Positions 12,220 through 31,543 of a stretch of DNA of 34,561 nt are shown one piece after another. The stretch is from assembly GCA_016288315.1 (NCBI GenBank), contig JAEEYU010000023.1, positions 1-34,561 on the forward strand, given 5' to 3'. The stretch comes from Clostridiaceae bacterium (GTDB lineage Bacteria > Bacillota > Clostridia > Oscillospirales > Acutalibacteraceae). The notes beneath the pieces were generated by a model, which made no database searches, had not been told where the DNA came from, and saw only the letters and a list, made by a program, of their open reading frames with translations. The position numbers were made by a program, and so were the translations under genes. Numbering within the stretch: position 1 is the stretch's first letter; every line of letters begins with the position of its first letter.

Positions 12220-12368
12220 GGGGGATGTTAATTTTTTCGCCGTCTGCCTCCCGAAAAAATTATTTTTCTCAGAAACGGCGGAACTTGACACAAAAAGGTC
12301 ACGAAAAACCCGTTTTCACGCTATGGGTGAGAGGCAAATTTCTCAAACCCTTTCCGAAAGGAGAAAAA

Positions 12369-12842
12369 ATGCAGCCGGATTTAACAAAACGCGAAAAACT
12401 TTTCATATCCCTTTACGCAAAAACCCGCGATGCCCGCTCTTCAGCCGCCCTCGCCGGCTATTCCGCCCCCCGCCTTAGCGCGCACCGTCTGCTCGCAAGG
12501 CAGGAGATAGCAGCGGAGATTTCCCGCACAATCGCCTCGCAGACACCCCCTCCCGATGAGAGTGCGCAGGGCTACCGCCGCCTCTCGTTCGGCAGCACGG
12601 CGGATGCCGTCATCCTTCTCAGAAACTGGGAGACGCTCACCGACTCCGACATTGAAAAGCTCGACCTCTTCAACGTCTCCGAAATCCGCCTCCCGAAAAG
12701 CGGAGGTATGGAAATTCGCTTTTTCGACCGCCTCAAAGCCCTTGAGAAGCTTGAAAACTCCCGCTCCTGCACATCTGCCGGGGATGACCTCCTCGCCGCC
12801 CTGCGCGAGGGTGCCGAAAAGCTCGGAGGTGTCGGCGATTAA
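12369..12842 (+). CDS. Phage terminase small subunit-like protein
   Basis: The 157-residue product starts at an ATG preceded by AAAGGAG. The first 45 residues (DLTKREKLFISLYAKTRD, then ALAGYSAP and ARQEIAAEI) match the helix-turn-helix DNA-binding domain of small terminases, which recognise the packaging start on phage DNA. The rest (ADAVILLRNWETLTDSD, DRLKALEKLE) resembles the oligomerisation region. A longer in-frame opening back to 12225 lacks a ribosome binding site and phage-like sequence, so it was not used. It is the first gene of the cassette, and the large subunit gene overlaps its end. Recognised by position and pattern. Confidence 0.82.
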   Translation: MQPDLTKREKLFISLYAKTRDARSSAALAGYSAPRLSAHRLLARQEIAAEISRTIASQTPPPDESAQGYRRLSFGSTADAVILLRNWETLTDSDIEKLDLFNVSEIRLPKSGGMEIRFFDRLKALEKLENSRSCTSAGDDLLAALREGAEKLGGVGD

Positions 12843-14112
12843 ACAAAAAGAGAGCTTTCGCCCCTTCTCGAAAAAGCAGATGAAGGTCTTCTGCTGGTGG
12901 CACGAAAACAGCGATTTCAGGGATTATGACGCAATAATCTGCGACGGTGCCGTGCGAAGCGGAAAAACCTTCAGCATGTGCCTATCGTTCTGCATCTGGG
13001 CTACGCTCAGAAAAGATGACTGCGACTTCGCCCTTTGCGGCAAAACAATCGCCTCTCTGCGCCGCAACATCGTCACCCCCGTTCTGCCCGCCCTGCGCCG
13101 CCTCCGTTTTGAAGTTCACGAAAAGCTCTCAAAAAATCTGGTCGAAATCTCCGCCTGCGGCCACACAAACAGGTTCCACCTTTTCGGCGGTAGGGATGAG
13201 AGCTCCGCCTCTCTCATCCAGGGTATGACTCTTGCGGGCGTCCTCTTCGACGAGGTCGTTTTAATGCCCCGCTCCTTTGTCGAGCAGGCGCTTGCCCGCT
13301 GCTCCGTTGACGGCTCAAAAATCTGGTTCAGCTGCAACCCCGCCAATCCCTCCCACTGGTTTTATGAGGAGTGGATTAAAAAAGCCGCCCAAAAAAACTG
13401 CCTTTATATTCATTTCACAATGGATGACAACCCCTCCCTGAGCCCCGCCATAGTCAGCCGCTATAAAAACCTTTACAGCGGAACCTTCTACGAGCGCTTT
13501 GTCGAGGGCAGATGGACCGCCGCTCACGGAGCCGTTTACCCGATGTTCCGCCCCGAAACCCATGTAAAAGAGCCCGAAGTCCCCACGCGCGGAAGATTCA
13601 TCTCCTGCGACTACGGCACCGTCAACCCCTCCTCCTTCGGCGTCTGGGGCGAGTGCGGCGGCAGGTGGTATCGCCTGCGCGAATACTACTTTGATTCCTC
13701 CCGCGAGGGCTTTTCACGCACGGATGAAGAGCACTACCTCGCGCTTAAAGAACTTGCGGGCGACGACCCGATTGAAGCGGTAATCGTTGACCCGAGCGCC
13801 GCGAGCTTTATGGAGTGCATAAGAAGGCACGGCGAGTTTGCCGTCCTGCCCGCCGACAACGACGTGCTGGGCGGAATCCGCAAAACCGGCGATATGTTAA
13901 GAGAGCGCAGAATCCTCATCTGCCCCTGCTGTAAGGATATCATCCGCGAGTTCGGGCTTTATCACTGGGAGAACAACGCCGTGCGCGACACGGTGTGCAA
14001 AAACAACGACCACGCAATGGACGATATGCGCTATTTCGTAAAAACCGCCCTCGGTGCAGACAGCGCCTTCTTTGTCTCGGCGGCGGAAAGGAGGTGTGAC
14101 AAATGGTATTGA
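12829..14112 (+). CDS. Phage terminase large subunit
   Basis: About 427 residues, forming the ATP-driven DNA packaging motor with nuclease. Walker A is GAVRSGKT (40-47), Walker B is VLFDE (138-142), and WFSCNPANPSHWFYE follows. The C-terminal RNase H-like nuclease shows its acidic residues in ISCDYGT (Asp261), VIVDPS (Asp321) and DHAMDDMRY (Asp397/398). The start is uncertain. GTG at 12829 is used here but overlaps the GGAGG at 12825-12829. An ATT at 12838 sits at ideal spacing and overlaps the TAA of the small subunit, and an ATG lies at 12784. The end overlaps the portal gene by 10 bases. Confidence 0.93.
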   Translation: MSAIKQKESFRPFSKKQMKVFCWWHENSDFRDYDAIICDGAVRSGKTFSMCLSFCIWATLRKDDCDFALCGKTIASLRRNIVTPVLPALRRLRFEVHEKLSKNLVEISACGHTNRFHLFGGRDESSASLIQGMTLAGVLFDEVVLMPRSFVEQALARCSVDGSKIWFSCNPANPSHWFYEEWIKKAAQKNCLYIHFTMDDNPSLSPAIVSRYKNLYSGTFYERFVEGRWTAAHGAVYPMFRPETHVKEPEVPTRGRFISCDYGTVNPSSFGVWGECGGRWYRLREYYFDSSREGFSRTDEEHYLALKELAGDDPIEAVIVDPSAASFMECIRRHGEFAVLPADNDVLGGIRKTGDMLRERRILICPCCKDIIREFGLYHWENNAVRDTVCKNNDHAMDDMRYFVKTALGADSAFFVSAAERRCDKWY

Positions 14113-15230
14113 GAAAAAAGCCGAAGCAGCAGACGGTCTCCGCCGTTCAGATTTCCCCCTCAAAGGGCTCCGCCTTCGGAATACCGGAGCAGTGCGTTCC
14201 CGTCCCCTGCAGGCACACAAAAATCTACTACGCCCTGCGCGAGGCGGTTCCCGTAATCGATGCGGCTGTCTTCAAGCTCGTGCGCCTGACCGGCGGCTTT
14301 CGCGTCGAATGCGCCTCCCCTTACGCTCAGAAAATGCTCGACGCCTTCATAATGCAGGTTGATGTCGGCGGCACACAGACGGGGCTTGAAGCGTTCATCT
14401 CCTCTTATTTCGAGCAGCTTCTCACCTGCGGCACTGCGGCAGGCGAAATACTCACCGACCTGTCGGGCGTTCCCCGCTCGCTCTCGGTGGCCCCGCTTGA
14501 AAATATCGAGCTTGTCCGCAGCAAAAACCGGGCGGGTGTCGGCATCCTCACCCTCGCCTCCGGCACTCCCGAGCCCGTAAAACGCCCCGACCTATGCCTT
14601 ATCAGCGTCCTGAATCCCGAGCCCGGCTCCCTCTACGGCTCCTCCCTGTTAAAAGGTATGCCCTTCGTCAGCGGCATCCTTCTTAAAATATTCGAGAGCA
14701 TCGGCTCCAACTGGGAGCGTGCGGGCAACATCCGCTTTGCCGTCACCTACAAGCCGGGCAGCGACTCCGTTGACAGGGCTTACGCAGGCGAACGCGCAAA
14801 ACAGATGGCGGAGCAGTGGAGCAGGGCAATGCAGCCGGGAGCCGTGCGCGATTTCGTGTGCGCGGGCGATGTGCAGATCAAAGCCATCGGTGCGGACTGC
14901 GCCGTTCCCGAAAGCGAAATTCCCGTGCGCCAGATGCTCGAGCAGATAGTTGCCAAAACGGGAATACCGCCTTTTATGCTCGGTCTTTCCTGGTCGTCAA
15001 CCGAAAGAATGTCCCAGCAGCAGGCGGACGCCCTGACAAGCGAGCTCGAGGCATACAGACGCATTCTCACCCCCGTCATCGAAAAAATCTGCCGCACCTA
15101 CCTGCGCAGCGTCGGCTGCGGCGACGGGCTTGAGGTTGTCTGGAACGATATAACAATGCAGGACGAGGTCGCCCTGAGCGAGGCGGAATTAAACCGCGCA
15201 AATGCCTTAAAAATAAGGAGTGAATTATAA
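14103..15230 (+). CDS. Phage portal protein
   Basis: The 375-residue product begins at an ATG behind a strong AAAGGAGG site inside the end of the terminase gene. Portal-type features are visible: an N-terminal wing region, LNPEPGSLYGSSLL, the stem-like helix region with NWERAGNIRFAVTYKPG, and the C-terminal IPPFMLGL with helical SQQQADALTSELEAY. In phages of this type a dodecamer of portal sits at one capsid vertex and docks the terminase. It is near the short end of the family range, but no truncation or frameshift is apparent. The protease gene begins two bases after its stop. Confidence 0.9.
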   Translation: MVLRKKPKQQTVSAVQISPSKGSAFGIPEQCVPVPCRHTKIYYALREAVPVIDAAVFKLVRLTGGFRVECASPYAQKMLDAFIMQVDVGGTQTGLEAFISSYFEQLLTCGTAAGEILTDLSGVPRSLSVAPLENIELVRSKNRAGVGILTLASGTPEPVKRPDLCLISVLNPEPGSLYGSSLLKGMPFVSGILLKIFESIGSNWERAGNIRFAVTYKPGSDSVDRAYAGERAKQMAEQWSRAMQPGAVRDFVCAGDVQIKAIGADCAVPESEIPVRQMLEQIVAKTGIPPFMLGLSWSSTERMSQQQADALTSELEAYRRILTPVIEKICRTYLRSVGCGDGLEVVWNDITMQDEVALSEAELNRANALKIRSEL

Positions 15231-15232
15231 AA

Positions 15233-16138
15233 ATGAACAAATCTGTCCCCGACGCCCGTGAGCTTGAGCTCATCAACAGCTACACCGTCTCACCCGTCGA
15301 AGCAAAGGATATCTACAAATTTGCGGTCATTCTGTGCGACAACGAGATTGACCGCGACTGCGAGCGCTTCTCCGCCGGGGCGCTTAAAAAAGCGGCGGAG
15401 CTTTTCAAGGGCAAAACGGGAATTTCCGACCATTCCTGCAGCGCGAAGGATCAGAGCGCGAGAATCTTCGACACCGAGTTAATCACCGACCCCGAGCGCA
15501 TAACCTCCTCCGGCGAGCCCTATACCTGTATAAAAGCTTACGCCTATATGCCCAGAACTCAGAAGAACGCCTCCCTGATTGAAGAGATTGAAATGGGAAT
15601 ACGCAAAGAGACAAGCGTCGGTCTGTCGGTCAGAAGCAAAATCTGTTCCGTCTGCGGCGAGGATATAAGAAACTGCGGGCACGTAAAGGGCAGATTCTAC
15701 GACGGCAAGCTCTGCCACGCCGTTCTCACCGACCCCGACGACGCCTACGAGTGGAGCTTTGTCGCCGTTCCCGCACAGAAGGCGGCGGGCGTCACCAAAT
15801 CTTATGACATTGAGGGCGTAATCAAAAAATACACGTCGGGCGCTCCCGTCTGCAGCAAAGAGAAAACCGCGCTCTCCGCCGATGTCGGCGGGCTTCTCCG
15901 CCTTGCCGCGCAGGGCGAGGAATACCGCCTCTCCCTCGTGCGCGAAGGCGTCAAAAAATGCTGCAGGGCGTTCCCTTCTCTTGAAAGCGCCTTTTTTGAA
16001 GAACTGCTTGAAAATGCGGATGTCTCAAAGCTTCTGCGCCTCTCATCCGCCCTTGACACGGCGGATGAAATCCTGCCCCCGCAGTTTTCTTCAAACCGTA
16101 AAAACAGCGAAAATTCCAACAGCGAATACAGAATATAA
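15233..16138 (+). CDS. Prohead serine protease-like protein with zinc-binding insert
   Basis: The 301-residue protein stands where HK97-type modules encode the capsid maturation protease. Candidate catalytic residues are His67 (GISDHSC) and Ser128 (RKETSVGLSV), followed by the family-like strand EWSFVAVPAQKA. Between them lies an unusual CSVCG...CGH...GKLCH insert (Cys138, Cys141, Cys148, His150, Cys161, His162) that could bind zinc. The C-terminal 110 residues are helical and may act as an internal scaffold, since no separate scaffold gene exists. The start ATG at 15233 has AAGGAG upstream. The protease call depends on motif spacing and position, so it is less certain than the terminase. Confidence 0.75.
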   Translation: MNKSVPDARELELINSYTVSPVEAKDIYKFAVILCDNEIDRDCERFSAGALKKAAELFKGKTGISDHSCSAKDQSARIFDTELITDPERITSSGEPYTCIKAYAYMPRTQKNASLIEEIEMGIRKETSVGLSVRSKICSVCGEDIRNCGHVKGRFYDGKLCHAVLTDPDDAYEWSFVAVPAQKAAGVTKSYDIEGVIKKYTSGAPVCSKEKTALSADVGGLLRLAAQGEEYRLSLVREGVKKCCRAFPSLESAFFEELLENADVSKLLRLSSALDTADEILPPQFSSNRKNSENSNSEYRI

Positions 16139-16150
16139 GGAGGAAATATT

Positions 16151-16492
16151 ATGTCAGTATCATTTGACGGCTTCGGCACTTCCGCACTCACCTTTGCCTG
16201 TGCGGATGAAATTCAGCCCGGCACTCCCGTTAAAATGACCGCTCCGGGAGAGGTCGCCCCCTGTTCGCAGGGTGATGAATTCTGCGGCGCCGTCGCATCA
16301 TACCGCGGCGGATATGCCGGCGTGAACCTGTGCGGCACCGTAACCCTCGCTTTAAGCGGAACGGCCCCCTCTGCTGGCTACGCAAAGCTTGCGGCGGACG
16401 GCAGCGGCGGAGTTGCCGTCTCAGACAGCGGCAGGGAATACCTCGTGCTCGACACCGACACGGCGGCAGGCACGGTCACAATCTTGCTTTAA
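16151..16492 (+). CDS. Putative capsid decoration (cement) protein
   Basis: The 113-residue product, with an AAGGAGG site, is a small glycine/alanine/threonine-rich beta protein lying directly before the capsid gene, as decoration proteins do. It reads like a beta-tulip or DUF2190-type cement protein: IQPGTPVKMTAPGEVAPCS, then FCGAVASYRGGYAGV and a closing TAAGTVTILL. No catalytic motif is present. The call is based on size, composition and position; a weak call, but a real gene. Confidence 0.6.
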   Translation: MSVSFDGFGTSALTFACADEIQPGTPVKMTAPGEVAPCSQGDEFCGAVASYRGGYAGVNLCGTVTLALSGTAPSAGYAKLAADGSGGVAVSDSGREYLVLDTDTAAGTVTILL

Positions 16493-16504
16493 GGAGGATT
16501 TTGT

Positions 16505-17506
16505 ATGAACTATGACAATATACGGCTTGAAAAAGGTCTTTACTGCAACGGCTCAATAACCGGCGCCCTCGAAAAGGAGGACCCTTCCGCTCAGTATAAG
16601 GGCACCTCTCTCGAAGGGCTCGACGCCTACGAGCGCCAGCTCAAAAGGTTCAATATCAGAGTCAGCGGTCCGGGCAGCGACACGGTTGAAAAGTTTTTCA
16701 AAACAACCGACTCCGCCGTTCTCTTCCCCGAATATGTCGCACGCGCCGTGCGTCAGGGTATGGAGCAGGCGGATATTCTCCCCCGCATAGTCGCAGCAAC
16801 CACGGTCATTGACTCCTCCGATTACCGCACAATCACATCCGACCCCGACGAAGATAAAAAGGAGCTTAAAAACGTAGCCGAAGGCGCCTTCATCCCCGAA
16901 ACAAGGGTGAGCGTCAAAAGCTCCCTCGTAACTCTTAACAAAAGGGGCAGAATGCTCGTCGCCTCCTATGAGGCGGTCCGCCGTCAGCGCCTCGACCTCT
17001 TCACCGTAACCCTCAGGCAGATAGGCGCCTATATCGCCCGCTCCCAGCTTAAAGACGCCGTCGGCGTGCTTGTCAGCGGCGACGGCAGCGGCAATGCGGC
17101 GGCTGTCACAAACACGGCGGTTTCCGGCACCCTCGCCTACACCGACCTTGCCGCCTTCTGGAACTCCTTTGACCCCTATGAGCTCAACACCCTTCTCGTC
17201 TCTCCCGATGTTATGCAGAAGGTGCTCGAAATGGCGGAATTCCGCGACGCCGCCGCAGGTCTCAACTTCCACGCAACAGGCAGAATGATTACCCCTATGG
17301 GCGCCTCTCTCATCAAGGCGGGCTGTGTCGCCCCCGGCACGGTAATCGGTCTTGACCGCTCCTGCGCCCTCGAAATGGTCAGGTGCGGCGGCATCACCAC
17401 CGAATATGACAAGCTCATCGACCGCCAGCTCGAAAGGGCGGCAATCACCTGCACGGCGGGCTTCTCAAAAATCTTCGACCCCGCGTCAAAAATCCTCAGC
17501 GTTTAA
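16505..17506 (+). CDS. HK97-type major capsid protein
   Basis: The 333-residue product follows the decoration-like gene by 12 bases with AAGGAGG. It has the pattern of HK97-fold capsid proteins: an N-terminal arm (KRFNIRVSGPGSDTVEKFF), the E-loop region near SDYRTITSDPDEDKKELK, the spine region VTLNKRGRMLVASYEAVRRQRLD, and the P/A-domain part with NTLLVSPDVMQKVLEM and TPMGASLI. The C-terminal strand TAGFSKIFDPASKIL ends the A domain. It is the expected shell protein, encoded just after the protease. Whether the arm is cleaved cannot be told from sequence. Confidence 0.85.
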   Translation: MNYDNIRLEKGLYCNGSITGALEKEDPSAQYKGTSLEGLDAYERQLKRFNIRVSGPGSDTVEKFFKTTDSAVLFPEYVARAVRQGMEQADILPRIVAATTVIDSSDYRTITSDPDEDKKELKNVAEGAFIPETRVSVKSSLVTLNKRGRMLVASYEAVRRQRLDLFTVTLRQIGAYIARSQLKDAVGVLVSGDGSGNAAAVTNTAVSGTLAYTDLAAFWNSFDPYELNTLLVSPDVMQKVLEMAEFRDAAAGLNFHATGRMITPMGASLIKAGCVAPGTVIGLDRSCALEMVRCGGITTEYDKLIDRQLERAAITCTAGFSKIFDPASKILSV

Positions 17507-17507
17507 G

Positions 17508-17885
17508 ATGAATCAGCTTATAGATTTCCGCAAAGCAGCCGACACCTACCGTCGCAACTACGGCGAGCCCCCGCTTCTCAACGGCGATTTTTACGCCCTG
17601 TGCGCGGCAGTCTGTGACGAGATTTCGCCCCTCGTCAGGCATAACGCCCGTTTTGACGACATCCGCCTTTTAAACCTCGCCGCCGCAGGTGTCAGATACA
17701 CCCTCGCCGTCCGGGAAGCGTCCTCGCAGGGCGGTGCCGTCTCCTTCAAAGCGGGCGATGTCGCCGTCACCTCCGACTTCGGCTCTGTCCTTGCCCGCGC
17801 GGAAGATGAAAAAAAGCGCCGTCTTGAATCGGCACTCCCCCTTCTTGAAGACAGCGGCTTCTGTTTTATGCAGGTGAAAATATGA
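17508..17885 (+). CDS. Head-tail adaptor-like protein
   Basis: The 125-residue product starts at an ATG overlapping no gene and one base after the capsid stop; a longer opening back to 17352 would lie inside the capsid gene and is rejected. It is mostly helical (FRKAADTYRRNYGEPPL, then FYALCAAVCDEISPLVRHN and LNLAAAGVRYTLAVREA), which fits the HK97 gp6-type adaptor ring that attaches to the portal. I do not recognise a specific signature; position is the main argument. No clear ribosome binding site is seen, suggesting coupling to capsid translation. The next gene overlaps its stop by four bases. Confidence 0.6.
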   Translation: MNQLIDFRKAADTYRRNYGEPPLLNGDFYALCAAVCDEISPLVRHNARFDDIRLLNLAAAGVRYTLAVREASSQGGAVSFKAGDVAVTSDFGSVLARAEDEKKRRLESALPLLEDSGFCFMQVKI

Positions 17886-18226
17886 ACACGGCAAAATATC
17901 TCGACACAGTCGGCAGGCAGGTGTCCCTCATCTCGCCTTCGGGTGAAACTTTGAGCGCTCACAGGGCTGTCATAAGCCCCCTTCGCTACAAAAACAAGAT
18001 GTATTTAAACGGAGTTTTCACCGACATCGGCTTCAACAGCGAGGGGCACTATCTCTATATAGGCCCTCCCTCCTGCGACCTGACAGACGCCCCCGACGGC
18101 TCCTTCCTGCTCGCAGACGGCATAAAATACCGCATCGACAGGGCGGAGAAGGTTTATGCAGGTGATGAGATTTTTTACATCTGGGCGATTATAAGAGTAA
18201 TGATTGAGGAGGATGAAAATGAGTGA
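17882..18226 (+). CDS. Head-tail joining (stopper)-like protein
   Basis: The 114-residue product overlaps the preceding gene by ATGA. It is beta-rich (YLDTVGRQVSLISPSGE, LYIGPPSCDLTDAPDG, FLLADGIKYRIDRAEKVY) and ends with an acidic helix. This resembles the small SPP1 gp16/HK97 stopper proteins that plug the head neck and whose fold is a short beta barrel. The YRIDRAEKVYAGDEIFYIWAI part is characteristic of such joiners. No enzyme motif. Call by size, strand pattern and order. Confidence 0.62.
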   Translation: MNTAKYLDTVGRQVSLISPSGETLSAHRAVISPLRYKNKMYLNGVFTDIGFNSEGHYLYIGPPSCDLTDAPDGSFLLADGIKYRIDRAEKVYAGDEIFYIWAIIRVMIEEDENE

Positions 18227-19052
18227 AATAAGCGCCCTGCCCGGCTCAATCGCCTCCTGGCTCGGCAGTCAGGAGGCGCTCTCGGGCATAAGATTCACAA
18301 CCGAATATCCCGCCGAACGCAAGAGCGTTCCCCTCTCCCGCACAATAGTCTCCGTCGGCATTGATTCCGTCACTGTCACCGACACCTTCGTTGAAAACGA
18401 CGGCGGTGTTCTCGAGCGCGACGAATACTGCCGCAACGCTCTCATTAAAGTCCGCCTGGGCGTTCACGCCCCGTTTTCCGCAGGGGGCGAAGCGTGCTAC
18501 GACGCCTTCACCGATGTCATAGATACCCTGACCTTCGCCTCCGACCTTGAAATTGTCGAATCCGGCGCGCAGGGTGTAACAGCCGACAGAGACACCGACG
18601 CCTTCGTGCTTTTTGCCTGGATTACCGTCAGAGCCAACCTCTGCCCCGCCGCCTCCTGCTCCGTGCCCTTTGCCTCTTTTATGAACAAGGATCTGCTCTG
18701 CGGCAGCCATATAAGAGACACCTCCGTCCATCTGAGCTCCGCCCAGCGTGAATACCTTGCCTCCCCCGTCGTCACGGGCACCTACTTCGGCACGGGCTCG
18801 TCCTCAAGGCAGATATCGCTCGGCTTTGCGCCGAAAGCAGTCTTCATAAGCGCCCTTGCCGAACCGTCGAGCTCCTGCGATTCTTCCTCCGGTATGACAG
18901 ACCAGTTCTGCGCCTTCGCCTGTGCGGGTGCGGGCTCTCCGGGCGTGCGCATAAATGCAAACGGCTTTTCGCTCAATACCGAGTCGTCCGGCGTCTGCCG
19001 CTCCCGCCTCAACGAATCCGGCGCCGATTACCTCTACATAGCCCTGCGCTGA
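18219..19052 (+). CDS. Tail-terminator-like protein fused to a fibre-like C-terminal domain
   Basis: The 277-residue product starts at the ATG at 18219 behind GAGGAGG. The first 143 or so residues (MSEISALPGSIASWLG, ALIKVRLGVHAPFSAGGEA, DAFVLFAWITVRANLC) resemble a neck/tail-terminator protein. From about residue 175 on it changes to a pattern familiar from phage tail fibres and receptor-binding proteins: TGTYFGTGSSSRQISLGFAP, KAVFISAL and a closing ADYLYIALR. A fusion of neck protein and fibre-like domain is odd. It could let a tailless head carry its own adhesive domain. It is the last gene of the cassette and ends before the 19066 terminator. The domain assignments are tentative. Confidence 0.65.
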   Translation: MSEISALPGSIASWLGSQEALSGIRFTTEYPAERKSVPLSRTIVSVGIDSVTVTDTFVENDGGVLERDEYCRNALIKVRLGVHAPFSAGGEACYDAFTDVIDTLTFASDLEIVESGAQGVTADRDTDAFVLFAWITVRANLCPAASCSVPFASFMNKDLLCGSHIRDTSVHLSSAQREYLASPVVTGTYFGTGSSSRQISLGFAPKAVFISALAEPSSSCDSSSGMTDQFCAFACAGAGSPGVRINANGFSLNTESSGVCRSRLNESGADYLYIALR

Positions 19053-19065
19053 AAGCAAAAATTCA

Positions 19066-19105
19066 GCCCCGCCATCCTTCCGGATGACGGGGCATCGCTG
19101 TTTTT
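19066..19105 (+). terminator. Terminator at the end of the phage cassette
   Basis: GCCCCG-C-CATCC (19066-19077) pairs with GGATG-A-CGGGGC (19082-19093) around TTCC, then seven bases and TTTTT. It is 13 bases past the last cassette gene and also lies at the converging end of alaX. Confidence 0.75.
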
Positions 19106-27028: not shown

Positions 27029-30000
27029 ATGAAAAAAGCAATTTCCCTGTTCCTGTGCCTGGCGCTCCTTGCGGGCACCTTTGCACTCGGAGCCGCAAAC
27101 ATCCCCTTTGCAGTAGAGGCGGCGGCTTCAGGCGCCGATATCACCAACGCCACAAGCCCCACCGGCCCCGAACCGCCCGGATATGCAAACGCACAGGACC
27201 CTTACAAGCTTGCGGGCACCAATAACGAAAAGCAGATTGCCGCGCTCAGCGAGCTTATGTTTTCCGTAAACAACACAAGCAAAATAGACTACCGTATCGG
27301 CGACAATTTAAAACCCGATAAAATCGACGGGACCAATGACGCACTCAACTTTGACAGCGGCAGCGCATATTTTGAAAGCACCTCCGGCGGCTCAAGTTCA
27401 ATAAGCGGCGTCTTTTTCACAAGGTCCGCAGCTCTTGACGCCGACGGCGACGGTCAGCGCGAATCCGTAGTATATGTCGGCTGGAGAGCAAGCGACAAAA
27501 AAGTTGTTGCCTGGGTTGTAAACGCAAGAACAAAGCAGACCTCTTCCGTTCTTACTGTCGGCACTGCCGCAGAAGGCATACAGGACCTTTACGGCGGCAG
27601 AGTAGCGGCGGTTTATCAGTCGCTCAACTTTTTCAGCATAACTTCGGGCGACTTCAACGGCAACAAAAAAGAAACAGCCGTTGCGGTTCTTCCCCTTTGC
27701 AAGCCCGGCGACACCGACTATGAAGTTCCTCAGGTTATTGAGTTTACAGTCAATGCTTCAAACAACACCATTTCAAAGGGCAACGGCACATCTGGTTATG
27801 TGAACCAGGCGTTCTTTGATGATGATGAAATCGGAATAGCTGACAGCACTGACTATGAGGACCTGCTTTCAACCCAGATAACCTCCGGCGACTTCAACGG
27901 CGACGGCAAAGATGACATTGCCGTTCTCAGCTATACAAACAACATAAGCACAACCTACGATGACGAGGACTATATAGACCTTTACGTTCCCTTCCTGAGA
28001 ATCGGTCACGGTTCATCATCGGGAATACCGGCTCTTCCGGGAGCAAGCACTATGGTTATTAATAATGAAAAGACGAGCGGCAGCGATAAATACTGGGATA
28101 TGCCCATCGCCGGCAATCTCATCGGTGCCGACATCGACAACGACGGCAGAGATGAAATAGTTATTGCCGGCTATTACGGTCAGGTAACCGGCACTACCTC
28201 CGGCAAAGATTATTATATGGTTGACAGCTCAAGAACAGCGTCAAACATCATTCTTGTCTCTTATGATGCCGACAACAGTCTGTCAATGAAGAGCTGGGAG
28301 AAAAAAGCCCCCAACGGCTGGACTTCAACAACCGGCGAATCGGTTTCGGGTGTCTGGCTTGCTCAGGACTATTGCTGGCAGCCCATCGGTATGGGTGCCG
28401 CAAGAATTGACGGCATCGGAAAAGCTGAATATGTGTTTATCAGCGGTTCTGTCTATCAATACAAAAACGGCAAGCTTGAGGCGGTTTACACCCCCGGTTA
28501 TTTCAATTCAATGGATGCCGCCAACGACAGCAACGCCATCAGCGTTACATTTATAAGCTCCGTTGACAACGGCGTGTTTGACGGCAACTACAGCACCTAT
28601 GAACAGATAGCTTTCGTTGTCGGTCTCAAAGAGTCCAGTCAGTCAATATACCACTGTATCGCCGGTGTTCTCGGCAAAAAAGATGTCAAAAACGGTGATG
28701 CGGTAACCCGCGACTGGTTCTGCAATGATGTTGAAGACTCAAAAACTTACCGCGGCAAAGACTGGCTTGCAACAGTAAACGCCGTTGACTGCGACAACGA
28801 CATTGTCAAAGTCAAGTTCAGAAGCAAATCATACGGCTGGAGCGACCCCGACATTATCGGCGTTCTTCAGGCGGCTCCCTATTTCGGCGAGCTCGGCGAC
28901 TATGAAGGCGAAACCACAATATCAATGTCAACATCCTACGAGTCCGAATACGCCGAATCCTGCAGCCAGTCGCTCGGTGTCGGCGGTATGTTCGAGGTTG
29001 ATGCCGAGGTCTTTGAAATGGAAATCAAGGCGGGCTACTCGGGCTCCTGGTCTCAGACCACCTTCAGCACCCAGAGCCACTCCCAGACATTCTCTGTAAC
29101 GGCAGGTCCGCATGACACGGTAATTGTCAGAAGAACACCCGTTTTCGATTTCTCCTATGATATCTGGGACGCGCAGAATAAAAAATGGTCCGAAGGCGGC
29201 TACCATATAAACGTCGTCAAGGAATCCACCTATTACACCTTCTCAGTTGACGAATACAACCAGTTTGCAACGATTTACAACGATCAGATGCAGGCGGTTT
29301 ACGGTAATAATTTCAAGAAGTTCAAACTTATCACCGAAGAAAACGCCCCCTACCTCATCGGCAACGAGGGCAACCCCTACGCCTACACGAAAGGTTCACT
29401 CGGCGCAATGACCGCAACGCTCGGTCACAACGGCGGCTCCCAGGCAATAAGCTATGAAGACTCCTACGGCTCGGGCACCTCTTCCTCCGAAGAAAACGGC
29501 TTTTCATTTGAAATGTCCGCCTGCGGCGGCAGCGAGCATGTCAAATTCGGCCTTTATATAAACACCGAGTTTATGTGGGGCGCCGAAACAACCGAAACCA
29601 CGGTTTCGGGAACCGGAACCGAGGGCTCCGTTTCGGATATCGATGACTCAGCTTCAGCCGAAGAAACCGACTCTCCCTCCGATATAGTTCATCAATACGG
29701 CTTCCAGTGGTCATTCGGCAAGTGGGATCTCAACCTTCTCGGCAACGAGAACGTTCCCGTTTACGGCTACAATGTCAACAACATTACCGGTCCCGCGCCC
29801 AGAGTTACCGACCTTGAATATGAAGTCACCAACGGCGGCACGGAACTCACCTTTGACTGGAGTGAACCCCCGACGGGCGAAGGCCAGGAAATTGCCGGCT
29901 ACTTCCTCTACAAGTCGGTTGAAGGCCGTCCCTTTACAAAGGTCAGCGATGATATTATCACCGACACAACCTATACCCTCACCCAGGATGATTATGACCG

Positions 30001-31543
30001 CACCAAAAACACCGTGTTTGCTGTAACCTCGGCATTCTCGAATACTGCAGGAAATTACACATATTATACCGAAGGTCTTTTCTCCAACCAGTGCCGCTTC
30101 AACGGCGACCTGAACGGCAGGTCCGCCTATGAAATCGCTCTTGACGAGGGCTTTGAAGGCACGGTTGACGAATGGCTCGAATCCCTCAAAGGCGCTACCG
30201 TAAAGAAAGTCGAGAAAACCTCAACAAACGGTCTTGTTGACACCTACACAATCACATTCTCCGACAACACAACGGCGTTCTTCAATGTCACAAACGGCGC
30301 ATCCGCTTATGAAGTCGCAAAATCAAACGGCTATCAGGGCACCGTTGAACAGTGGCTCGCGTTAATCGGCGCAGACTGCGCTCAGGGCCACACCTACACA
30401 GAATTCACCATGCCCGCCTCCTGCGGACGTCCCGGCTGCACAGTCAAGGTCTGCTCAAAATGCGGTGCGAGCGAATTCTCCATGACAGACGCCCTTGAAC
30501 ACAACTACACGTCAACTGTAGTTCCCGCAACCCACACAACCTGCGGCTACACCCGCTACGTCTGCGAAAACTGCGGCGACACCTACTGCGACAACCTCAC
30601 CGCCGTAACGGAGCACACCTACACCTCAAAGGTAGTTGCCCCCACCTGCGTTGAGAGCGGCTACACCGAAAAGACCTGCACCGAGTGCGGAATAGTTATC
30701 AGAACAGATATCGTCGAGCCCACAGGCCACTCCTACACGGCAACCGTAACCGAGCCCACCTGCTCGCATTACGGCTACACCACATACAAATGCGAAAACT
30801 GCGACAGTGAATATGTTTCCGACATCACACCGACAACCGACCACAACTTCAGCACAAAAGTTATCAGCAGCACCTGCTGCACGGGGGGTTACACAATCAG
30901 ATACTGTGCCGATTGCGGTTTCTCGGTGATTGAAGACGAAACACAGGCAAAGGGTCACACCTTTGAAGTCTCAAAGGTGTTTGCCCCCACCTGCTCGACA
31001 GCCGGCTACAGCATCTACACCTGCACCGAATGCGGAGTAAACTACATCGATGATGAAACCGACCCCGTCGCCCACACACCCGGCGAATGGGTATGCGAAG
31101 ACCCCGCAACAGGCAAATACACCAAGAGATGCGAAAACTGCTACAAGCTCCTTGACACCAAAACGGTTTCAATAGTCAGCGGCGACGGCAACGGCCAGAC
31201 TCCTCTCAACCCGAATATCGACGAGAACGGCATTCTCAACATCGGCTACAAAGAAAGCGAGAGGGTCACTCTCAAGGTTGACGGCGTCAACTCCAGCACC
31301 GTTGTTTACGAGTCCTCCGACCCGAAGGTTGCAACCGTTGACAGCAATGGCAACGTCACGGCGGTAGGCCCCGGCGATGCAGTCATCACCGCGAGCATTC
31401 CCGGCACCGCAATCCAGACCAAGGTGCCCGTAAACGTCAAGCTCACCTGGTGGCAGAAGGTTCACTACTTCCTTGACTCCTCACCGATCTTCCGTCTGTT
31501 CTTCATGCTCTTCAAGATTAACATCCCCACAATCAGGTTCTGA
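27029..31543 (+). CDS. Giant secreted multidomain protein with FG-GAP-like, aerolysin-like, Cys-repeat and Big_2-like parts
   Basis: The 1504-residue protein has a signal peptide (MKKAISLFLCLALLAG). In order I read: FG-GAP/VCBS-like repeats with Asp/Asn/Gly calcium-type loops (LDADGDGQ near 136, SGDFNGNKKE near 206, SGDFNGDGKDD near 286, ADIDNDGRDE near 365). At about 628-713 is a stretch of alternating Ser/Thr and hydrophobic residues, like the pore-forming strands of aerolysin-type proteins. An FN3-like domain (about 922-1020) and two collagen-tail-like EGTVDEWLESL units (1030-1056, 1090-1116) follow. Seven Cys repeats (1121-1379), a Big_2-like domain (about 1390-1470) and a hydrophobic tail starting TWWQKVHYFLD finish it. 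No LPXTG. Start behind CGGAGG. Toxin, adhesin and polysaccharide-binding roles are all possible. Confidence 0.85.
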   Translation: MKKAISLFLCLALLAGTFALGAANIPFAVEAAASGADITNATSPTGPEPPGYANAQDPYKLAGTNNEKQIAALSELMFSVNNTSKIDYRIGDNLKPDKIDGTNDALNFDSGSAYFESTSGGSSSISGVFFTRSAALDADGDGQRESVVYVGWRASDKKVVAWVVNARTKQTSSVLTVGTAAEGIQDLYGGRVAAVYQSLNFFSITSGDFNGNKKETAVAVLPLCKPGDTDYEVPQVIEFTVNASNNTISKGNGTSGYVNQAFFDDDEIGIADSTDYEDLLSTQITSGDFNGDGKDDIAVLSYTNNISTTYDDEDYIDLYVPFLRIGHGSSSGIPALPGASTMVINNEKTSGSDKYWDMPIAGNLIGADIDNDGRDEIVIAGYYGQVTGTTSGKDYYMVDSSRTASNIILVSYDADNSLSMKSWEKKAPNGWTSTTGESVSGVWLAQDYCWQPIGMGAARIDGIGKAEYVFISGSVYQYKNGKLEAVYTPGYFNSMDAANDSNAISVTFISSVDNGVFDGNYSTYEQIAFVVGLKESSQSIYHCIAGVLGKKDVKNGDAVTRDWFCNDVEDSKTYRGKDWLATVNAVDCDNDIVKVKFRSKSYGWSDPDIIGVLQAAPYFGELGDYEGETTISMSTSYESEYAESCSQSLGVGGMFEVDAEVFEMEIKAGYSGSWSQTTFSTQSHSQTFSVTAGPHDTVIVRRTPVFDFSYDIWDAQNKKWSEGGYHINVVKESTYYTFSVDEYNQFATIYNDQMQAVYGNNFKKFKLITEENAPYLIGNEGNPYAYTKGSLGAMTATLGHNGGSQAISYEDSYGSGTSSSEENGFSFEMSACGGSEHVKFGLYINTEFMWGAETTETTVSGTGTEGSVSDIDDSASAEETDSPSDIVHQYGFQWSFGKWDLNLLGNENVPVYGYNVNNITGPAPRVTDLEYEVTNGGTELTFDWSEPPTGEGQEIAGYFLYKSVEGRPFTKVSDDIITDTTYTLTQDDYDRTKNTVFAVTSAFSNTAGNYTYYTEGLFSNQCRFNGDLNGRSAYEIALDEGFEGTVDEWLESLKGATVKKVEKTSTNGLVDTYTITFSDNTTAFFNVTNGASAYEVAKSNGYQGTVEQWLALIGADCAQGHTYTEFTMPASCGRPGCTVKVCSKCGASEFSMTDALEHNYTSTVVPATHTTCGYTRYVCENCGDTYCDNLTAVTEHTYTSKVVAPTCVESGYTEKTCTECGIVIRTDIVEPTGHSYTATVTEPTCSHYGYTTYKCENCDSEYVSDITPTTDHNFSTKVISSTCCTGGYTIRYCADCGFSVIEDETQAKGHTFEVSKVFAPTCSTAGYSIYTCTECGVNYIDDETDPVAHTPGEWVCEDPATGKYTKRCENCYKLLDTKTVSIVSGDGNGQTPLNPNIDENGILNIGYKESERVTLKVDGVNSSTVVYESSDPKVATVDSNGNVTAVGPGDAVITASIPGTAIQTKVPVNVKLTWWQKVHYFLDSSPIFRLFFMLFKINIPTIRF
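30389..31165 (+). repeat. Tandem 37-39-residue cysteine repeats inside the giant protein gene
   Basis: Six full units and one shortened one follow each other. Each opens with His and then Tyr/Phe-Thr/Ser, has a Cys near position 12, a Gly-Tyr-Thr, and a Cys-x-x-Cys near 22-25, as in HTYTSKVVAPTCVESGYT plus CTECG. Spacing of the three cysteines and the leading His suggests a metal site or disulfide-stabilised stalk. The last unit lacks the first cysteine motif of the others. Confidence 0.8.

Follow-up and report, generated by a model that had tools for sequence, protein, structure and literature searches.

We analysed a window of 34,561 nucleotides from a Clostridiaceae bacterium (contig JAEEYU010000023.1; 'the window' denotes this whole stretch), in which nine intact open genes lie on the plus strand between positions 12369 and 19052, neighbours overlapping or standing apart by no more than about 12 bases. 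The first two encode the small terminase (TerS, 12369–12842; Pfam Terminase_2, 5e-9) and the large terminase (TerL, 12829–14112; Terminase_6N, 2e-18), the start of the latter being uncertain (the GTG at 12829 or a later codon). The portal gene follows (14103–15230); its product matched phrog_30703 at 4e-119 and, below Pfam's own cut-off, Phage_portal at 4e-8. Gene 4 (15233–16138; phrog_16951, 1e-91) had no Pfam match of its own, but a Tepidibacter protein matched by its profile carries the annotation 'XkdF-like putative serine protease', and we therefore call its product an XkdF-like head protease, perhaps with a scaffold part. That Tepidibacter protein had a sub-threshold match to Peptidase_S78_2 in Pfam, 34 members of the protease family searched with Pfam gave no credible match, and a sequence search of the PDB returned a single row for the protease with an E-value of 0.24. 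The protein encoded at 15233–16138 also contains an invariant CxxC...CxH pattern, perhaps a zinc site. Next come gene 5 for a decoration-like virion protein (16151–16492; phrog_4588, 2e-23) and the gene for the major capsid protein (16505–17506; Phage_capsid_4, 2e-19; phrog_3922, 3e-93), whose profile found no PDB row at E <= 0.01. Genes 7 to 9 had no Pfam or PHROG match. By position, g7 (17508–17885; best PDB row only E 0.071) is a candidate neck or adaptor protein, kept in 83 of 84 family-level loci, and g8 (17882–18226) a candidate head-closure protein, present in 75 of the 84. The original prediction of nine intact, tightly packed head-and-packaging genes is confirmed, and the Walker A and B motifs and acidic nuclease residues of TerL, which it had described as intact, are conserved in 100–103 of the 101–103 sequences aligned per position. 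The cluster is phage-derived and structural, has no replication genes of its own and has no tyrosine integrase nearby.

The last gene, g9, is composite. Its N-terminal part (18219–18653) has the fold of a tail terminator according to AlphaFold, Foldseek and VIA-align, and is followed by a linker of low model confidence (18654–18728) and by a C-terminal domain (18729–19052, all on the plus strand) that derives from T8, a short tail protein of tailed relatives. The fold search with the whole-g9 model covers residues 1–150, and the C-terminal domain modelled alone reached a mean pLDDT of 90. The terminator and T8 domains are joined at a single junction across the window and 15 relatives (16 sequences), in all of which residues 142, just before the linker, and 161 are cysteines. 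The statement that the operon holds 'nothing else of a phage' was accordingly inexact, as one domain of g9 is that of a tail protein.

The operon has a G+C content of 57%, compared with 52% on either side, and its codon usage correlates at 0.86 with that of 16 neighbouring genes; no tRNA and no Rfam match was detected in the window. The upstream pduL and lipoprotein genes are also present at the relatives' loci L031, L032 and L035. The clean end at a terminator that had been proposed holds in part: a 12-pair hairpin does follow g9 (19066–19093), but the terminator scan called it for the minus strand, the alaX side, and not for the plus strand. Upstream of terS lies a 25-bp motif (12285–12309, plus strand), a possible operator or promoter, of which a second site in the window's own genome precedes an HTH_36 gene. 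In all, the motif stands before three winged-helix HTH_36 genes (L229, 8655–8679; L230, 8217–8241; L231, 9120–9144), two of them with DUF6017; it recurs twice in genome G201, no HTH_36 gene immediately follows the extra site in G200, and G015, of the same genus as the window, has none. Common control of the cassette and HTH_36 genes through this motif is possible. We rejected a family-wide regulon, as the motif matched in 3 of 200 genomes, the two besides the window's own (G000) with 2 mismatches, and one match arose in the controls; judged by these matches, it is restricted to the closest relatives. Elsewhere in the window, at 27029–31543, an open reading frame of 1504 amino acids has a signal-like start and, by eye, repeated cysteine motifs near its end.

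Distribution and descent of the operon

Of 200 genomes sampled from the family, the window's own included, 112 carry the capsid (99 of the 157 high-quality ones, 58 lacking it), with exactly one match, free of internal stops, in each of the 112. Two of these matches were partial, and identity to the window's capsid was 45–78% outside its own genome. An order-wide sample of 295 genomes contained 43 positives, of which 20 belong to the family and 23 to five others, and in a class-wide sample of 391 genomes the portal was detected in nine, eight within the order and one, at a marginal 8e-4, outside. Among four named relatives with the cassette are 'Ruminococcaceae bacterium RUG13231' and Clostridia from goat omasum. 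For comparison we assembled 104 loci, namely 84 at family level (80 of the 111 other capsid-positive family genomes and the 4 named relatives) and 20 from the 23 positive genomes outside the family, leaving out G232, G293 and G343 (genus g162). Three loci of family f26 (L192, L193, L194) have heads with a more divergent capsid and a T3-like gene as their sole tail gene.

The original prediction had proposed a search for conserved order at one chromosomal position. The order and strand of the genes detected from terS to g8 were as in the window at 101 of the 104 loci (the cassette is rearranged at L101, L175 and L194). The chromosomal site differs between genera. The gene hflX lies immediately downstream at 15 loci, all within one 19-row clade, and mgtE immediately upstream at six, two with the g9 fusion (L037, L052) and four tailed (L038, L040, L044, L096). 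A quick tree was built from TerL, portal, protease and capsid (105 rows; L202, L204 and L205 excluded), and many of its deep forks were weakly supported. On it, 21 of 22 multi-row genera were monophyletic when unlabelled rows were allowed inside. Genus labels changed 21 times on this tree, the minimum for 22 genera, and family labels 6 times; the remaining genus, g56, also takes in L189, which belongs to another family, and the tree program flags this as a long-branch pairing. Nei-Gojobori estimates over all genes gave omega values of 0.071–0.206 in 11 of 13 pairs, the other two being saturated and not computable, with single genes reaching 0.43; pairs that include the window had dS values of 1.1–1.5, near saturation. 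The dN/dS check that had been suggested therefore came out as purifying selection.

In 20 genomes, the contig with the cassette had no tyrosine integrase within 25 kb, in a search limited by draft contigs; the nearest one, in G173, was about 30 kb away from terS, and all 20 genomes carry tyrosine integrases elsewhere. Judged from the trees and substitution rates, the cassette is of vertical descent at genus level, under purifying selection. The g9 gene encodes a new fusion protein, and the operon is real, old and maintained by selection. A recent prophage remnant is ruled out by the single copy per positive genome, the genus-level vertical descent and the purifying selection.

Tail genes in related operons

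Many relatives continue past the head genes. At L068 the operon runs on from g9 into T1 (a weak PDB profile match to a tail tube, 1.7e-3), T2 (LysM), T3, a baseplate hub (phrog_177, 5e-18), T4, T5 with sub-threshold sheath-initiator and GP46 matches, T6 (Baseplate_J, 4e-47), T7 with a sub-threshold match to Mu gp48, and the short tail protein T8. We sorted the 104 loci into 18 contractile (with a sheath), 43 with a sheathless baseplate, 15 head-only with the fusion, 21 otherwise head-only or partial, and 7 cut short so close behind the heads that no tail could be scored. A chaperone-like gene is found at 13 of the 104, and at L177, which spans about 13 kb, a 203-aa gene occupies the tape-measure position.

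The original prediction had named tail genes contiguous with the cassette in close relatives as a sign of a recent remnant. Baseplate J does adjoin the heads at 47 of the 84 family-level loci, but the nearest relatives of the window on the tree (L031, L032, L035, L036, L037, L039, L042, L045 and L058) are all head-only and fused, and the loss of the tail is therefore old. The operon of the window's lineage lacks T1–T7, and its g9 joins the C-terminal domain of T8 to the terminator domain. Monophyly of the fused rows was not rejected (p-AU 0.186), and the best tree has 4 changes of this state. Genome-wide searches of the 16 fused genomes gave no baseplate J match in 15, with a profile that unrelated tails would escape, and no match to the hub profile in any of the 16; the exception, G003, has one distant baseplate J on a different contig. 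A reductive series from a phage of the Tepidibacter type is the simplest reading of the locus types, its direction being only inferred because the tree is unrooted and the tail or head state changes 10 times on it.

The complete phage-plasmid NZ_CP120734 of Tepidibacter hydrothermalis (L235; 38.8 kb) matches 17 of 20 tailed-element profiles in collinear order and also carries a tape measure protein, a holin and an M15 peptidase. It had no match to the TerL, T1b or T8 profiles, its TerL being missed by the cassette profile.

Comparison with known particles

In common with gene transfer agents (GTAs), the cassette is a phage structural cluster without replication or integration genes of its own, as far as tyrosine integrases are concerned, and is inherited vertically under purifying selection. 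The head-tail cluster of the Rhodobacter capsulatus GTA includes tail morphogenesis genes (PMC10883770), whereas the tail genes are gone here. The PBSX-type elements of Bacillus share with the cassette the XkdF-like protease and, with the tailed relatives, XkdP/Q/S/T-like genes, names that rest in part on Pfam and PHROG matches. PBSX retains a full tail and lysis genes, and the window has neither; contractile tail genes of the PBSX type are absent from its operon and present at 18 of the 104 loci. The capsid-forming phage-inducible chromosomal islands (PICIs) likewise have head, packaging and connector genes of their own and no tail, but depend on the tails of a helper (PMC10690885), and no tyrosine integrase lay near the cassette in 20 genomes. 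Nor does the cassette have the broken genes or the relaxed selection of a decaying prophage.

The closest parallel is FpGTA of Faecalibacterium, which PMC12946183 describes as particles of about 40 nm without visible tails that hold about 8.4–9 kb of host DNA. The window's element shares with FpGTA a source in gut Clostridia and a small operon of terminases, portal and capsid without replication genes. A second tail operon elsewhere in the fused genomes, in an arrangement like that of FpGTA, was considered and rejected, as the baseplate J and hub searches of the 16 genomes yielded only the baseplate J of G003. Two genomes (g235), which we take to be Faecalibacterium from a 51–53% match to a marker of that genus, fall outside the 43 capsid-positive genomes of the order sample. 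Their loci L208 (4151–8007) and L209 (13315–14346) hold a different head operon with Phage_capsid_4 capsids and, at L208, a P22-type portal, perhaps that of FpGTA I; L207–L209 were read as lists of open reading frames, with two capsids and one portal assigned by Pfam. Against the cassette profiles, the 3.7-kb TerL loci of these putative Faecalibacterium genomes gave one weak TerL match. Since the L208 and L209 genomes are capsid-negative and the L208 portal is of P22 type, the element seems to be a lineage separate from FpGTA, in a comparison made through the putative Faecalibacterium genomes and not FpGTA's own proteins. GTA-like packaging has also been reported in Onthomonas, Ruminococcus callidus and CAG-115, where the operon is unnamed in the text available (PMC12946183), and the present element is a candidate source of it. 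A description of the element was not found among the literature matches listed.

Discussion

Overall, we consider the cassette to be best explained, with a probability of roughly 0.6, as a domesticated, vertically inherited head operon of one Clostridia order that makes a GTA-like, tailless, DNA-packaging particle. The earlier suggestion of a domesticated capsid, as opposed to simple decay, is well supported by the single copy in 112 of 112 genomes, the low omega values and the genus-level descent. The conserved motor residues suggest that the capsid packages DNA, and the lack of replication genes and of integration genes nearby speaks against a self-propagating genome. TerS and TerL would fill the capsid with DNA by way of the portal; packaging of host or plasmid DNA is plausible, and the cargo is probably host DNA because the operon has no replication or integration genes, as would also be expected by analogy with GTAs. 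The neck would be closed by g7, g8 and a ring of g9. Retention of the T8 domain, now on the neck, points to a continued role for cell binding, and the T8-type domains on the g9 ring may bind other cells. To our knowledge, a tailless head has no known delivery route. With tube and hub missing, import of the DNA might fall to the uptake machinery of the recipient itself, much as the competence proteins ComEC, ComF and ComM assist the entry of GTA-delivered DNA in Rhodobacter (PMC10883770); as weak support for transfer, ComEC was present in all 20 genomes tested, but 10 of 14 controls have it as well. Particle release would need lysis functions, and no lysis gene was found in the operon. More tentatively, and with somewhat less confidence than an even chance would warrant, we propose that a GTA shed its tail stepwise, from contractile to sheathless to none, that the binding domain of the tip moved to the neck ring, and that the tailless capsid docks on kin, which import the bacterial DNA themselves.

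The lack of a delivery apparatus in the operon and its strong conservation would also suit a capsid retained for a role other than transfer, such as a killing or decoy particle, storage or signalling, and PBSX-type particles are described as killing without DNA injection (PMC12946183). We regard such a role as unlikely, since purifying selection acts on the terminase and portal and their catalytic residues are intact, for which a shell that packages nothing would have no use, and since the tail, which normally does the killing, has been lost. Less probable again is a helper-dependent element whose heads join the tails of a co-resident prophage and which spreads in this way, as the capsid-forming PICIs do. 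The restriction of the operon to head and packaging genes, the other phage baseplate genes in some host genomes (for example G003, G080 and G051) and the tyrosine integrases elsewhere in all 20 genomes searched are what such an element would show; however, in none of the 20 does such an integrase lie within 25 kb on the cassette's contig, the cassette is single-copy and vertically descended, 15 of 16 fused genomes lack a match to a baseplate J profile that unrelated tails would escape, and the terminator, which would meet the tail, bears an extra domain. The satellite in need of a helper's tails that was originally among the candidates thus fares poorly, given the integrase result and the tail-tip domain fused to the terminator.

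The progressive absence of tail genes from locus to locus could also be taken for a prophage remnant in slow decay, with the tail genes first to go. With no internal stops in any of the 112 positive genomes, omega at 0.071–0.206 and a fusion protein conserved in 16 sequences, we give this very little credence. A virus lineage still moving horizontally within the order, its heads and missing functions supplied elsewhere, would account for the split of g56 by L189, for the division of the fused rows on the best tree and for the 23 positive genomes in five other families. It too is highly improbable in view of the 21 of 22 monophyletic genera and the sites shared with hflX and mgtE. If the GTA-like reading is true, Clostridia contain a widespread lineage of GTA-like particles that is probably not the FpGTA one and in which intermediate stages of tail loss survive; selection can maintain a DNA-carrying capsid without any tail; and the hand-over of DNA by a tailless particle becomes a testable question.

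As a weak hint from viromes, the capsid also matches ten phage records, five of which are unannotated 'Bacteriophage sp.' from human faeces. One of these records, MT835508 (46.7 kb, human faeces, Mexico; L219, 8803–37795), may originate in work on virus-like particles from children in Mexico (PMC8361208), the excerpted text of which does not contain the accession. By eye, its head-only cassette lies amid rnf-, ribosomal-protein- and rpoA-like genes, and contamination or the choice of phage-like contigs can explain the deposition of such a chromosome-like scaffold as a phage.
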